A stretch of 64,000 nt of DNA from Solemya velum gill symbiont (GTDB lineage Bacteria; Pseudomonadota; Gammaproteobacteria; Chromatiales; Chromatiaceae), in NCBI RefSeq assembly GCF_000787395.1, contig NZ_JRAA01000001.1, positions 1,136,470 to 1,200,469 of the forward strand, read 5' to 3'. Positions 9,746 through 46,449 of the stretch are shown here, piece after piece. The position numbers were made by a program, and so were the translations under genes. Numbering within the stretch: position 1 is the stretch's first letter; each line of letters opens with the position of its first letter. The notes beneath the pieces were generated by a model, which had not been told where the DNA came from, did not search any database, and saw only the letters and a list, made by a program, of their open reading frames with translations.

Positions 9746-10942
9746 TTAGAGGAACTCCAGCAGAAATCCGACGACATCACTGGATGAGCTCTCCACGAGA
9801 AAGCTGATCTCTACCTCTTCACCCGCACCTATGACGCCTTGATCACTGTTTTGCAGGTAGGCTTCCGGTTTGATTCTCTGTCGCACCCGGCTGATGCCAT
9901 ATTTATCCGTCAGGGTTAGCTCGATTGTGGGATAGGGCTGGGGCCAGATTGCCCGGTTGGCAACAGTCAGGTGCAGATCAAACAGGTTGTCACTGTTTTC
10001 AACACGTGTGAACAGGCGGTTGGTCAGTTCAAGTTCATCTGGTGAGCGAATCATGGGAGGCGTCATGCCAAGCATTTCGCTGGCCGAGGCCATGGTTTTG
10101 TAGACCGCAGGGTTGTCACGGAAGGACCAGGCCAGTTGCACACACAGAACGAGTACCAGTACGCCGGCAGCAATATGCCAACCGGGTCTGCTGCGAGTCT
10201 CTTCTTGCGTCTCTTCTATTCTGACTTCGGGCACATCTACCGGAACTTCTCTTGGTGAATGAGTCGCGGCAGGGTGCCTTTCAGCTTTTCGTGGTCTTCG
10301 ATCAGGTCTGAGTCCGCGAATTGCCGTGCTGTAACCACGGCCTTTGCTGGATTCAGTCGCGCTCGGCTTCTCTTTTCTCACTCTTGGTGTGAGATTGTCC
10401 AGATCAGGCTCTTGTTCAGCTGTGGGACTGTCGGTTGCGCCAGCTGCTTTATCTTTTCTTTGCTGGCCGTCGTCAGGCTTTTGCTTTCGTGCAGGCGTGG
10501 GAGCCTGCTCAGTCCTGGGCTTTGACCTGGTCTTTGGCTTGGATTTAGGTTTAGGCCTGGGTTTGGGTCTTGGCGCTGGTTTTGGCGCAGGCTCCGGCTC
10601 TGGAACTGGTTCAGGTTCGGGCTTTGGAACTGGTTCAGGCTCTGGCTCAGGTTCAGGTTCAGGTTCAGGTTCAGGTTCAGGTTCAGGTTCAGGTTCAGGC
10701 TCAGGCTCAGGCTCAGGCTCAGGCCTTGTTTGGCTTTCTTCTATAGTGTGCCTCATTTCCGGGGCCGTCTCGCGCACCTCTTCAGGGGATGACTCACTGG
10801 CCCCGGCAGCTGGTCCGGGTATGGTGAAGATACCCTTACACAAGGCGCAATGGGCATCCTGGCCGACTTTCGCAGCAAGGGCAGCCGTCATGCGATAGGT
10901 TGCGCCGCAATGCGGACACTGAATTGTACCTTTCAAAACCAT
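9746..10942 (-). CDS. Zinc-ribbon / DUF3426 membrane protein with Pro-Glu repeat
   Basis: The N-terminus is an MJ0042-type zinc ribbon with Cys9, Cys12, Cys32 and Cys35. A low-complexity linker follows, starting with a run of Pro-Glu dipeptides from about residue 73 and continuing into Pro/Lys/Arg-rich sequence. One membrane segment ([16 protein letters not shown]) comes next. The C-terminal DUF3426 domain contains [19 protein letters not shown] and ends in VGFLLEFL. The layout suggests a cytoplasmic zinc ribbon and a periplasmic C-terminal domain. In many proteobacteria this family lies downstream of prmA; here its neighbours are rpmE and ilvE. The biochemical role is not known. The PE run is encoded by a tandem hexamer that could vary in copy number. 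Confidence 0.85.
10644..10721. repeat. Tandem hexanucleotide array (13 copies)
   Basis: Thirteen uninterrupted six-base units: one GGCTCA, eight GGTTCA and four GGCTCA. More degenerate copies continue to the left. On the coding (minus) strand each unit encodes one Pro-Glu pair of the DUF3426 protein. A hexamer array keeps the frame, so slippage would change linker length rather than switch the gene off. Confidence 0.95.
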
Positions 10943-12240: not shown

Positions 12241-12828
12241 ATGGTTGAAGAGAATAAAAAAAGCTTTCCGATAAGCGATGACGAGAACGTACGCGAACAG
12301 CAGTTTCGCCGTGCCGTCAGTTCGTTTGAGGGAATCATTCTCAGCCAGATTGAGATGAAGAACAAGCTGGCTGTCCGGCTTAACTACAGTATCGTTGCGG
12401 GCATTCTCATTCTCGGCATGATCGCTATCTCGATCCTGATCCTGCTACTGACACTCTCTTCCCAAGTCAACCGGATGAATGCGGTCGTGACCGATATGAA
12501 CCATAACTTTACCCAGGTTGCTGACCAGATGACGGCCATGAAAAGTTATGTCGGTTCGATGGAAACACGCGTGGCACAACTTAACGAAATACGTGATTAC
12601 ACCTCAATCATGGATTCGGAAATGGAGTTTGTCTCTTCTGACATGGACGATATGCTGAACAGGATCAGTGGTATCGGTGAGAACGTACATGGTGTTCGCA
12701 CCAAGGTCGATAGTATCTCCAACACGGTTGATCGAATGGATTTTGAGGTTGTGCGCATGCGCTACGATATGAAGGATATGGCAAGACCTTCTCGCACTTT
12801 GAACAAAATGTTCCCTTTTCTGGATTAG
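12241..12828 (+). CDS. Met-rich coiled-coil membrane protein, paralogue A
   Basis: I do not recognise a characterised family. The 195-residue protein has a charged N-terminal region, one strong membrane segment at about residues 49-73 (IVAGILILGMIAISILILLL), and then about 110 residues of predicted coiled coil. In the coil Met recurs at near-heptad spacing (VNRMNAVVTDMNHNF, SEMEFVSSDMDDML). It ends with MRYDMKDMARP and FPFLD. The next gene, 11 bases downstream, encodes a paralogue with the same architecture and a matching C-terminal MRYxxxxMxRP motif. The topology suggests a short cytoplasmic head and a long periplasmic coil, or the reverse. The ribosome binding site is weak. Similar proteins are sometimes given misleading names such as translation initiation factor; nothing here supports that. 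Confidence 0.8.
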   Translation: MVEENKKSFPISDDENVREQQFRRAVSSFEGIILSQIEMKNKLAVRLNYSIVAGILILGMIAISILILLLTLSSQVNRMNAVVTDMNHNFTQVADQMTAMKSYVGSMETRVAQLNEIRDYTSIMDSEMEFVSSDMDDMLNRISGIGENVHGVRTKVDSISNTVDRMDFEVVRMRYDMKDMARPSRTLNKMFPFLD

Positions 12829-12839
12829 GAGTCTGAACC

Positions 12840-13406
12840 ATGACAGAAGAGAATATTAACCAGGGAACATCAGATTCTGAACGTTGTGATTCCAGGGAGA
12901 CCTGGATCAAGGTAATCGGAAAGCTGGGTCGTGAAACACAGCTCCACCTTGACGAGCGCTATCGCTCATTCCAGATTACTGACTACATTATTCATGCCGT
13001 CTCAATCATGCTGGCGATTCTTGCGATCTTCAACGTCTACTATGTCACGGTGCTGTATCGTGATCTCAACGGCATTGTCGAGAACATGGATTCGATGCAT
13101 GCCAACCTGCAGGTGATTCGTGGCGACATGGTTGAAATTACCGGCACTGTCAGTGATCTCAATAGCCATATCAGCAACATGGACGAGATTACCGGACATA
13201 TGGGGAGCATGACGACCCGGTTGACCAACGTACGTCATAACATGGATGGCATATCCGAACATATGGGTGCGATTGCAGAAGAGATGGGGCTGCTGGATAT
13301 CGGCATGTCCAATATCGACTACCGCACCAGTAATATGTCATATAGCGTATCCGGCATGCGTTACGAGACACGTCAGATGTCGCGCCCGATGGGTATTATG
13401 CCCTGA
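12840..13406 (+). CDS. Met-rich coiled-coil membrane protein, paralogue B
   Basis: This 188-residue partner of the preceding gene has the same layout. A polar N-terminus is followed by a membrane segment at about residues 48-72 (TDYIIHAVSIMLAILAIFNV), then a coiled coil with regularly placed Met (ENMDSMHANLQVIRGDM, NMDEITGHMGSMTTRL). It ends with MRYETRQMSRPMG and IMP. A clear AGGAG site lies eight bases before the ATG, overlapping the end of paralogue A, so the two are very likely translated from one message. The two proteins may form a heteromeric coiled coil in the membrane; that is inference. A 255-base gap follows before trxA. It contains a small GGCC-AAAA-GGCC hairpin near 13525 and no gene that I can support. 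Confidence 0.8.
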   Translation: MTEENINQGTSDSERCDSRETWIKVIGKLGRETQLHLDERYRSFQITDYIIHAVSIMLAILAIFNVYYVTVLYRDLNGIVENMDSMHANLQVIRGDMVEITGTVSDLNSHISNMDEITGHMGSMTTRLTNVRHNMDGISEHMGAIAEEMGLLDIGMSNIDYRTSNMSYSVSGMRYETRQMSRPMGIMP

Positions 13407-42961: not shown

Positions 42962-43510
42962 TCAGAAAGCGGGCTTCTCAGGCGCATCATTATAGCGGGT
43001 GATACTGTCTGTGATCTCTTTCTTGGCCTCTTCAGGCCCTTCCCAGCCCAGAATCTTGACCCACTTGCCACTTTCAAGGTCCTTGTAGTGCTCAAAAAAG
43101 TGAGAGATACGGTCAAGAACATCCTGGGGCATATCACGGAATGACTCCACTTCGCGGTAGCGACGTGTCAGCTTGTCTTTTGGTACAGCCAGTACCTTGG
43201 CGTCCATACCTGCTTCATCTTCCATCTGCAGTACGCCGATTGGGCGAACCTGGATAACGGAGCCGGGGATCAGTGGGTAGGGAGTGACAACCAGTACGTC
43301 ACACGGGTCACCGTCATCAGAGAGTGAGTGTGGGACATAACCGTAGTTACACGGGTAATGCATGGCTGTTGCCATGAAACGATCAACGAACATTGCGCCT
43401 GTATCTTTGTCGACTTCATACTTGACCGGGTCAGCATGTGACGGGATTTCGATAATGACATTGACTTCGTTTGGCGAACTGCTTCCCGCGGTGACTTTAT
43501 CCAGATTCAT
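42962..43510 (-). CDS. ppa: Inorganic pyrophosphatase (family I)
   Basis: Hydrolyses PPi to two phosphates in the cytoplasm, driving biosynthetic reactions. The 182-residue protein contains [15 protein letters not shown], the family signature [10 protein letters not shown] with its metal-binding Asp residues, and [13 protein letters not shown]. It lies about 150 bases downstream of the PPi-dependent phosphofructokinase on the same strand. Each gene has its own terminator, so they are not one simple operon. The two enzymes compete for PPi. Confidence 0.97.
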
Positions 43511-43665: not shown

Positions 43666-44922
43666 TTACAGCTCGAAGTCTTCCAGCTTGCGCTCTACGC
43701 CAGCTAACTTCAGGGTGACATAGTCAGGCATACCGTTGTCGTCGTAAGGAGGGTAAGACTCGCCCTTGATCAGAGGATAGAGATACTCTTTGCAACCATC
43801 AGTGATACCGAAACCATCTTCAGAGATGTATTCCATTGGCATCATCTTCTCAACATTGGCGACCTCGGAGAGAGGTGCTTCGCCGATGCTCCACTTGTAG
43901 GGAGATGAAGACTCGCGCACGACGGTCGGCATGATTGAGTTTTTACCCTCAAGGGCTTTTTCTACACCAGCCTTGCCGAGAGCGTAAGCCTGCTCGACAT
44001 CAGAGCCGGATGCGAGGTGACGTGCTGCACGCTGCAGGTAGTCAGCAACTGCCCAGTGAAACTTGTAACCAAGCGCATCCTTGATCATGTTGGCAACAAC
44101 AGGTGCCGCACCGCCAAGCTGTGCATGGCCGAAAGAGTCACGCGTACCCTGTTCAGCAAGGAAAGTACCATCTGGCCAGTGTGCACCCTCGGAAACGACG
44201 ATGGTGCAGTAACCGTGTTCCTTAACCTTGGCATCAACCGCGGCAAGGAATTTCTCCTGGTCGAATTCAACTTCAGGGAAAAGGGTAACAACAGGAATGC
44301 CGTAGTCCTCGACCAGTGCGCCTGCAGCTGCAATCCAGCCGGCGTGGCGTCCCATAACCTCGATAACAAAGATCTTGGTCGAGGTTTTTGCCATAGAGCG
44401 TACGTCGTAGGAGGCTTCCAGGGTGGAAACGGCAATATACTTGGCAACTGAACCAAAGCCCGGGCAGTTGTCGGTAATCGGCAGATCGTTATCGACCGTC
44501 TTCGGGATGTGAATTGCCTGTACCGGGAAACCCATTTTTTCAGAGAGTTGGGAGACCTTGAAGCAGGTGTCAGCCGAGTCGCCACCACCGTTGTAGAAGA
44601 AGTAGCCGATGTTGTGTGCCTTGAAAATTTCGATCAGACGTTCGTATTCACGCTTGTTGTCTTCGAGGCTCTTGAGCTTGAAGCGGCATGAACCGAAAGC
44701 GCCGGAAGGCGTGTGTTTCAGAGCGGCAATCGCTTCATCAGACTCCTGGCTGGTGTCGATCAGCTCCTCGGTCAGTGCGCCGATGATACCGTTGCGGCCA
44801 GCATAGACATTTGCAATCTTGTCAGGGTGCTGACGTGCAGTCTCAATAACGCCACAGGCAGATGCGTTGATCACTGAGGTGACACCGCCGGACTGGGCAT
44901 AAAATGCGTTTTTTGCACTCAT
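43666..44922 (-). CDS. pfp: Pyrophosphate-dependent 6-phosphofructokinase
   Basis: Transfers phosphate from PPi to fructose-6-phosphate, reversibly. The decisive segment YNGGGDSADT has Asp where ATP enzymes have Gly in GGDGS. The catalytic segment reads HIPKTVDND, with the Lys typical of PPi enzymes. Other landmarks are GRHAGWIAAAGAL and the substrate-binding MGR. The 418-residue protein begins at MSAKNAFYAQSGG with GGAG upstream. In methylotrophs and some thiotrophic symbionts related enzymes also act on sedoheptulose bisphosphate in carbon fixation. PPi use is well supported; the wider role is inference. Confidence 0.92.
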   Translation of the reverse strand: MSAKNAFYAQSGGVTSVINASACGVIETARQHPDKIANVYAGRNGIIGALTEELIDTSQESDEAIAALKHTPSGAFGSCRFKLKSLEDNKREYERLIEIFKAHNIGYFFYNGGGDSADTCFKVSQLSEKMGFPVQAIHIPKTVDNDLPITDNCPGFGSVAKYIAVSTLEASYDVRSMAKTSTKIFVIEVMGRHAGWIAAAGALVEDYGIPVVTLFPEVEFDQEKFLAAVDAKVKEHGYCTIVVSEGAHWPDGTFLAEQGTRDSFGHAQLGGAAPVVANMIKDALGYKFHWAVADYLQRAARHLASGSDVEQAYALGKAGVEKALEGKNSIMPTVVRESSSPYKWSIGEAPLSEVANVEKMMPMEYISEDGFGITDGCKEYLYPLIKGESYPPYDDNGMPDYVTLKLAGVERKLEDFEL

Positions 44923-45291
44923 GTTTCTACTCCAAAGTTAATTTCAGATTATTGATTTAATGTGTTTGTGTCTGCCGCCGCTGTCATGAAGGCAAGAATG
45001 CTTGAGTGGTATCAGCGACGTTTCTTGATCTCTAACTGTTTCTCTGTAAAAACGGGTATATTGCATAAAAATGGCATGAAAAGCGCCATAATTTCGCTCA
45101 AACCGGATAAATATAGTGTATTTTACCTCTGTTTGAAGCATGCTACTTGAAAAAATAGTGAAAATAGCTTATCTGTGTGTGTCACGGCTCGCAATCCAAA
45201 TGTCTGGATGTGGCCATGCAAATAATTAATTAACAAAAACGTGCAGTTGCAGCAATTGAAAACTGCCATCGGATAACAGACTGGAAGCAGT
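44923..45291. other. 369-base divergent regulatory gap between pfp and the adk-like gene
   Basis: No gene is supported here. An ATGGC / GCCAT dyad separated by nine bases lies at 45071-45089. A possible promoter for the adk-like gene is TTGAAA (45147-45152) followed after 17 bases by TATCTG (45170-45175), which has a weak -10. The stretch around 45230 is strongly AT-rich. Confidence 0.35.
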
Positions 45292-46449
45292 ATGCGAATG
45301 ATACTTATGGGCCCCCCGGGTGCGGGCAAAGCTTCACTGGCAATGAAGATCGCCAAGGCTCTCAAAATCCCCCGTATTCACCTGCAGGACAGGCTGACCA
45401 GCATGGCCGGAGAAGAGACCGAACTCGGACGTCTTGTCGGTGAGCTGATCACCGCCTGTGCGCCGATCCCTGACGAGGTTATATCAACTGCGCTACATGA
45501 GGAGATCGAAACCTCCAGAGAGGGCTTTATCCTTGATGATTTCCCCCGTGACCCCGCACAGGCTGCCCAGCTCAACAACTTTCTCAAGGGTGTAGGGGCG
45601 CCACTCGAACTGATTATCGAGGTGCATGCTGATAATGATGATCTGATGGAGCGCCTGGTCGGCAAACAGGCGTGTGACAGCTGCGGAACTAAGTATAACC
45701 TTTATTCTTCACCGCCAATGGTCGAAGGTGTTTGCGACATGTGCGGTGGTCGTATCGCCCGTCGTCCACCAGACTACGAAGAGACAGTGGCCAATCGCTT
45801 ACGCAATTGTGAAGTCAGCATTGCCGAGATGCTCAACTACTTCAAATCGCAAAAAATTGCTCACCAGTTGTTCGGACTGGCAGATAGAGAAGATGCCTAT
45901 GCTCGCGCCATGGACATCATTAAATCTGTCGAACGAATTCCGTTGCAGGAGATTGAACCGGACGAGAGCGAAAAGAAAGAGACCAAGAAAAAACGCGGCA
46001 AGGCGAAAGCCGGAAAGAAAGCAGCGGTAACAAGCACAGCAGACCAGGAAGAGAGCAAGGCAGGAAAGAAGCAAGGCACGAAAAAGAAGGCGGCTAAAAA
46101 GGCTCCTGCAAAGAAAGCAGCCAAGAAAACTGCCAAGAAGGCTCCGGTAAAGAAAGTAGCAAAGAAAACTGCCAAGAAGGCCCCGGTTAAGAAGGCAGCA
46201 AAGAAGAAGACGGCCAAGAAGGCCCCTGTAAAAAAAGCAGCCAGGAAGACAGTGAAGAAGGCGCCGGTGAAAAAGGTCGCCAAGAAGAAGGCTGTCAAGA
46301 AAAAGGCACCCGTCAAGAAGGTGGCGAAGAAGGCAGCAAATAAGGTAGCTAAGAAAAAGGTAGTAAAAAAGGCACCGGCCAAGAAGGCGTCAAAAAAAGT
46401 AGCGAAGAAAAAGGTAGCAAAGAAAAAAGCGCAAAAAAAGCGCCGGTGA
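45292..46449 (+). CDS. Adenylate-kinase-like protein with zinc LID and histone-H1-like C-terminal tail
   Basis: Residues 1-215 align without gaps to adenylate kinase at the N-terminus: P-loop GPPGAGKAS (7-15), with Lys13 kept but Gly14 to Ala and Thr15 to Ser. The AMP-site motif STGDMLR of E. coli is HLQDRLT here, losing Thr31 and Arg36. The FPR Arg is kept (DDFPRD, Arg86). The LID has four cysteines (Cys128, 131, 148, 151), a structural zinc site as in Gram-positive enzymes. From about residue 228 to 385 the protein is a Lys/Ala/Pro repeat (units such as KKAPVKK and AAKK) like bacterial histone-H1-like DNA-binding proteins. A canonical adk presumably exists elsewhere. Nucleotide kinase activity is uncertain; nucleic-acid binding by the tail is likely. 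No frameshift or stop breaks the fusion. Confidence 0.88.
   Translation: MRMILMGPPGAGKASLAMKIAKALKIPRIHLQDRLTSMAGEETELGRLVGELITACAPIPDEVISTALHEEIETSREGFILDDFPRDPAQAAQLNNFLKGVGAPLELIIEVHADNDDLMERLVGKQACDSCGTKYNLYSSPPMVEGVCDMCGGRIARRPPDYEETVANRLRNCEVSIAEMLNYFKSQKIAHQLFGLADREDAYARAMDIIKSVERIPLQEIEPDESEKKETKKKRGKAKAGKKAAVTSTADQEESKAGKKQGTKKKAAKKAPAKKAAKKTAKKAPVKKVAKKTAKKAPVKKAAKKKTAKKAPVKKAARKTVKKAPVKKVAKKKAVKKKAPVKKVAKKAANKVAKKKVVKKAPAKKASKKVAKKKVAKKKAQKKRR

Follow-up and report, generated by a model that had tools for sequence, protein, structure and literature searches.

We suggest that an adk-like gene of the Solemya velum gill symbiont probably encodes a tethered nucleotide-binding pseudo-adenylate-kinase, catalytically dead or very slow, which would derive from a housekeeping adenylate kinase (Adk) furnished with a polycationic anchor. 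Among model enzymes adenylate kinase is a textbook case; it is normally soluble, essential and about 215 residues long. The family to which the present gene belongs forms a natural series, from fully catalytic to catalytically dismantled proteins, with the tail, the fold and the gene neighbours in common. The series makes two questions testable, namely whether bacteria anchor their energy-charge enzymes to the nucleoid or to RNA, and by what route a non-catalytic regulator can arise from an essential enzyme. There is a warning for annotation too, as an adk-like gene in this group may not be adk.

In the open-access literature searched, there appears to be no description of the gammaproteobacterial family of tailed Adks, of its pfp neighbourhood or of its graded loss of catalysis in the face of constraint; among the matches listed, none had a title about a tailed or H1-like Adk or about bacterial pseudo-adenylate-kinases. 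A tailed Adk is already represented in NCBIfam, by model NF010381. The gene studied here lies in a stretch of 64,000 nucleotides (hereafter the window; contig NZ_JRAA01000001.1, positions 1,136,470 to 1,200,469), and positions below are those of the window. The genome itself (G000; 2.70 Mb in 10 contigs) is 99.74% complete.

Gene structure and fold

The gene occupies positions 45292 to 46449 on the forward strand, and its frame of 385 residues runs from ATG to TGA without interruption, which bears out the single frame claimed in a preliminary description of this DNA. We class it as a degenerate adenylate kinase with a histone H1-like tail, on the basis of the open frame and of an architecture that recurs in relatives. 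Residues 1-215 (45292 to 45936, forward strand) form the kinase part. Pfam matches both ADK (2.8e-26) and ADK_lid (5.4e-10) above cut-off in this region, the AlphaFold2 model is confident over residues 1-222 (mean pLDDT 89.7), and all of the best 50 PDB matches listed by Foldseek for the model are adenylate kinases.

The core, NMP-binding and LID parts of the fold are all present, and the window protein shares its fold, a P-loop with Lys13 and a four-cysteine LID with the zinc-LID Adks of bacteria (the Bacillus type, PDB 1zin, and the reconstructed ancestor 5g3y, the latter at 147 bits). The LID, of the zinc type, spans residues 128-151 (45673 to 45744, forward strand) and contains Cys128, Cys131, Cys148 and Cys151. 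The four zinc cysteines are found in 131 of 131 tailed rows, four of these rows being duplicates.

Eighteen catalytic residues, in what we take to be their E. coli numbering and roles, were scored on alignments, and a protein was called decayed when two or more were replaced and intact when none or one was. The conserved AMP-site and catalytic residues of the Adk family are incomplete in the window protein, where 8 of the 18 are replaced (G14A, T15S, T31L, G32Q, R36T, G85D, R123K and D158P). The P-loop (residues 7-15, GPPGAGKAS; 45310 to 45336, forward strand) keeps Lys13 and has Ala-Ser in place of the canonical Gly14-Thr15, while the AMP-binding segment (residues 31-36; 45382 to 45399, forward strand) reads LQDRLT as against TGDMLR in the symbiont's canonical Adk. 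With replacements on the AMP-binding side (T31L, G32Q and R36T in this segment, together with G85D) and with G14A, T15S, R123K and D158P in addition, sensing of AMP, ADP and ATP, which the preliminary description considered possible, is unlikely to proceed by ordinary catalysis. Asp33, Asp84 and Arg88 are canonical, so weak activity is possible.

The second, canonical adk for which that description suggested a search does exist, at C1:329331; its 210-residue product exceeds the cut-offs of several adk models of NCBIfam (NF001379, for instance, at 350.4 against 268). Among the 25 NCBIfam matches listed for the window protein, no adk-model cut-off is reached, the scores against curated models including 167.3 for NF001380 (cut-off 251) and 132.2 for TIGR01351 (cut-off 168). 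The full-length kinase fold described earlier stands as a fold but, with 8 of 18 catalytic residues replaced, not as a plain kinase. As to that interpretation overall, the architecture is real and widespread, and it is the plain full-length kinase that has to be given up. The active-site replacements and the sub-cut-off scores had both been overlooked.

A histone H1-like tail

Residues 223-385 (45958 to 46446, forward strand) form a polycationic tail of 163 residues with a net charge of +68, and the calculated pI is 5.1 for the kinase domain and 10.2 for the whole protein. The tail comprises 71 Lys, 37 Ala, 16 Val, 8 Thr and 8 Pro; it had been described as about 155 residues of Lys/Ala/Pro repeats, of which the Lys/Ala richness is confirmed, whereas proline is only a minor component. 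It is presumably disordered. Relative to a canonical zinc-LID Adk, the window protein thus differs in its added tail and in its changed catalytic residues. A tail-only search of the symbiont genome gave three matches, all of them to this gene, and no other H1-like tail was found there.

A long Lys/Ala-rich C-terminal tail of this kind is characteristic of AlgP/PhaF proteins of pseudomonads, in which the H1-like region is reported to be about 150 residues long (PMC9239181). The N-terminal part of AlgP is predicted to be helical, whereas that of the window protein is a kinase domain, and the AlgP repeat is KPAA, whereas the window tail has units like KKAPVKKAAKKTA and its whole translation contains no KPAA. 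A second comparison is offered by NF010381 (PRK13808), whose members, presumably alphaproteobacterial, also consist of an Adk followed by a Lys/Ala-rich tail, 94-119 residues long in 10 of 10 members above cut-off (L227-L236; 10 of 398 genomes of the phylum have such a member). They differ in being another type of Adk, the window protein scoring 61.5 against a cut-off of 426 with its best stretch at residues 1-122, and their tail looks independently acquired.

When the repeats of the tail were compared in frame (66 overlapping segment pairs), 39, 96 and 445 differences were counted at codon positions 1, 2 and 3, respectively. As the differences are mainly at third positions, the repeats look old and kept at the protein level. 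Misassembly, a possibility raised in the preliminary description, and slippage are ruled out by this codon pattern and by 127 distinct tailed relatives, and the same architecture occurs in genomes assembled as a single contig (G098, G100, G113, G153, G215, G221 and G222). Orthologues consistently without a tail, which would also have told against that description, are not what we find: the tail recurs throughout these relatives, although one (L151) retains just a short remnant and some Adks at the same locus are untailed. The relatives' tails have a median length of 215 residues and a median net charge of +78 (118 tails). In one record (L004/L050, G016:C134) the tail goes from KKAPAKKAA to RRRRPRR and then to GEEGPGEEG repeats, as if the reading frame of the lysine repeat had shifted, either by sequencing error or by a real frameshift.

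Distribution and gene neighbourhood

The search for the same architecture in related genomes, likewise suggested in the preliminary description, drew on 55 relatives, 210 family genomes, 80 named loci, 370 class genomes and further fetched loci. The 127 tailed Adks gathered are distinct by their first 200 residues, duplicates (including L197, L200, L203 and L218) having been removed. Named tailed relatives are mostly labelled Gammaproteobacteria or one of its subgroups, with three (L074, L076 and L121) labelled just Proteobacteria. For at least 94 of the 370 class genomes, about a quarter of the sample, the best Adk match falls in a frame of at least 300 residues, long enough for a histone-like tail (an eye count over genomes at least 90% complete, with eight candidates scored per genome). 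Among the 30 loci fetched from this survey (L197-L226), which as the best-scoring profile matches are biased to intact members, 28 have a frame of at least 300 residues, and a Lys-rich tail is present in 28 of those 28. In the family survey mainly long-frame members were fetched, so that tail retention there is partly by construction.

In the window, the tailed gene is divergent from pfp (43666 to 44922, reverse strand), which encodes diphosphate--fructose-6-phosphate 1-phosphotransferase (PPi-PFK; NCBIfam NF010675, 628.9 bits against a cut-off of 273). Beyond it lies the gene of an inorganic pyrophosphatase (PPase; 42962 to 43510, reverse strand; NF002317, 286.7 bits against a cut-off of 200). 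The divergent intergenic region of 369 bp (44923 to 45291), noted from the sequence and from the divergent arrangement in relatives, is possibly a shared promoter region; a promoter scan of it returned one site against 1.3 expected. The tailed Adk is divergent from the PPi-PFK gene in 110 of 127 cases and from a PPase gene in 10; a PPi-PFK or PPase neighbour was unseen within the fetched flank in the other 7. In other lineages the divergent neighbour closest to the tailed adk is PPase instead of pfp. Untailed Adks are found at the same place, beside pfp (L025, L104 and L128) or beside PPase (L069, L075, L079, L081, L137, L142, L213 and L223), so the locus is not limited to tailed Adks.

This neighbourhood bears on the idea that the window protein belongs to polyphosphate granules, its tail binding polyphosphate (polyP) and its Adk domain, or the remnant of one, serving polyP/AMP/ADP conversion close to PPi-based glycolysis. 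Neighbours that encode PPi-PFK and PPase are in keeping with such a role, as is the KPAA-tailed AlgP, which is reported to be found at polyP granules and perhaps to bind DNA if polyP is lacking (PMC9239181). The symbiont genome contains ppk1, and polyP binding by this particular tail is possible. However, untailed Adks have the same PPi neighbours, and PPK1 was matched in 28 of 40 genomes with a tailed Adk as against 32 of 40 untailed ones, so that PPK1 does not follow the tail (the tails of 24 of the 40 were read as sequence, 8 of these 24 genomes being without PPK1, and those of 16 were taken from frame length). Since PPK1 is missing from 12 of the 40 tailed genomes, polyP as a universal partner is weakened and unlikely, and we regard the granule explanation as quite unlikely.

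Erosion of the active site

The tailed Adks are spread over a wide range of active-site states, 55 of the 127 having 0-1 changes and 72 having 2-11 of the 18 residues changed. The 77 untailed rows comprise 64 with no change, 12 with one and a single row with two, which is the L151 protein with its short tail remnant (the short row L108 had been left out before the active-site count). The Fisher p value of 1.2e-18 ignores relatedness, and the tree described below gives only four changes for decay. A further set of untailed paralogues, from 20 genomes of the symbiont's own family and taken from the higher-scoring rows of a longer list, has D159E as the sole change in 20 of 20.

Retention among the 72 decayed members differs greatly from site to site. 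From the most to the least retained, the counts are K13 (71), G12 (71), Q92 (70), R119 (70), R156 (68), R123 (64), R167 (59), D159 (57), R88 (48), G85 (46), D158 (42), T15 (27), T31 (26), G32 (26), D84 (24), G14 (14), D33 (12) and R36 (11). Judged by these residues, the decayed members give up the predicted capacity for AMP recognition together with the Mg-linked acids and the last part of the P-loop, and they hold on to the fold, the zinc LID and a basic pocket for phosphate. With G14 and T15 lost in so many members, ATP binding itself may be weakened, and the notion that the ATP half-site is fully kept is ruled out.

A neofunctionalised kinase should also be considered here. It would still pass on the phosphate of ATP, though to an acceptor that is not AMP but a different NMP, a small molecule or a protein, and its tail would hold it close to nucleic acid. 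The retained P-loop lysine and most of the LID arginines, combined with a rebuilt AMP pocket, are consistent with such an enzyme, and so are the strong purifying selection reported below and the presence of D33, D84 and R88 in the window protein. Yet most of the decayed relatives are also without D33, D84 and T15, and the replacements vary by clade (D84V in 33 of the 72, T15E in 17), a pattern that fits loss of catalysis better than the adoption of one new substrate. We consider a new phosphotransfer activity unlikely.

Selection and evolutionary history

For the kinase domain, comparison of the window gene with that of a relative in the same genus (L003) gives a dN/dS of 0.061/0.690 = 0.088. 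Over pairs whose dS exceeds 0.1 but not 1.5, the middle value is about 0.07 both in decayed members (24 pairs) and in intact ones (20 pairs, among which are two duplicated rows, L203 = L023, a sequence used twice, and L200 = L007), and the upper median is 0.076 in both. Purifying selection on decayed members is as strong as on intact ones. Pseudogene decay is ruled out by these values and by the stop-free frame; taken together, the residue tables and the dN/dS values show catalytic residues lost under purifying selection, one mark of a pseudoenzyme.

The same measurements weigh on an explanation in which nothing is sensed and the tail serves for solubility, as an RNA chaperone or for association with ribosomes, the degenerate kinase domain being no more than its folded carrier. 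That the sequence of the tail drifts between relatives while its composition stays would be expected of such a protein, and the seemingly independent Lys/Ala tail on NF010381-type Adks is in line with it. The decayed kinase domains are strongly constrained, however, with the zinc site and the phosphate-binding arginines mostly kept, which is more than a mere carrier needs, and we think this explanation very unlikely.

In a quick maximum-likelihood tree (109 rows, 79 of them tailed, clustered at 85% identity, with the catalytic columns left out), the tail changes 4 times, the decayed state 4 times and single sites up to 11 times; these counts share the long-frame sampling bias of the family survey. 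Among the loci examined, decay at two or more sites outside the symbiont's own family is confined to L015 and L109, and decay therefore rests on few origins.

A canonical-Adk query of 51 genomes found a single Adk match in 26 and two or more in 25. In 22 of the 26 single-Adk genomes, all 22 of them 94-100% complete, the only copy found is an intact tailed Adk (in G227 with K13E). The other four have a decayed tailed copy, in G085 (90% complete), G086 (91%), G079 (72%) and G209 (80%), and genome incompleteness may lie behind these, although two of the four share a genus. In the genomes with two or more Adks, the tailed copy is intact in 14 and decayed in 11. As 14 of 25 such genomes retain an intact tailed copy, a second adk does not force decay, and a rule by which a second adk leads to decay is ruled out as stated. 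The order of events was likely tail first and decay later, mainly where another Adk exists.

Two of the single-Adk records are worth separate mention. G085 and G086 (L065 and L068) belong to one genus, and in both a decayed tailed Adk is present and no canonical Adk was found in assemblies that are 90-91% complete. In L047 (G227:C85), K13E is the one replacement in the active site of the sole Adk found; its frame extends past the end of the record and may contain an error.

Proposed role of the tailed protein

We propose that the gene is orthologous to an old Adk of Gammaproteobacteria, situated beside PPi-PFK/pyrophosphatase genes, which would have acquired and kept a long polycationic tail, a step that can be seen in the sequences. 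The tail would anchor the protein on a cellular polyanion, most likely DNA or RNA and possibly also polyphosphate, with AlgP as a precedent. In the many lineages in which the tailed protein is the only Adk found, the balancing of ATP, ADP and AMP would then fall to an anchored enzyme. In the symbiont's own family an untailed canonical Adk is often also present, and there the tailed copy has often lost residues of AMP recognition and Mg-linked residues; the loss of AMP binding and catalysis would be the functional counterpart. The fold, the zinc LID, the P-loop lysine, most of the LID arginines and the tail are retained under purifying selection.

The survivor would be a tethered nucleotide-binding protein with ATP or Ap4A (a dinucleotide) as candidate ligands, and its open or closed state, or its local binding, might report either of them at the anchoring site. 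Ap4A is reported to be bound and slowly hydrolysed by the E. coli Adk (PMC10399197). A structure entitled as the D84A variant of that enzyme with hydrolysed Ap4A (PDB 8rj9) provides a point of comparison, as D84 is lost in 48 of the 72 decayed tailed members; the window protein differs from the variant in keeping D84.

A bolder version of this proposal extends it to the whole family. Pseudo-Adks repeatedly stripped of their AMP and Mg sites would have become chromosome- or RNA-tethered sensors of ATP or Ap4A, and the active sister protein, on which many Gammaproteobacteria still depend as their only Adk, would be a nucleoid-anchored energy balancer. We offer it tentatively, as a conjecture that may well prove wrong.

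Other genes in the window

Two further loci of the window drew attention. On the reverse strand, positions 9746-10942 encode a 398-residue protein with two CxxC motifs towards its N-terminus and a long Pro-Glu repeat, for which no NCBIfam match was found at 1e-10. On the forward strand, positions 12241-13406 encode adjacent proteins of 195 and 188 residues, the first without an NCBIfam match at 1e-10, and both have one hydrophobic stretch and Met-rich, coiled-coil-like stretches.
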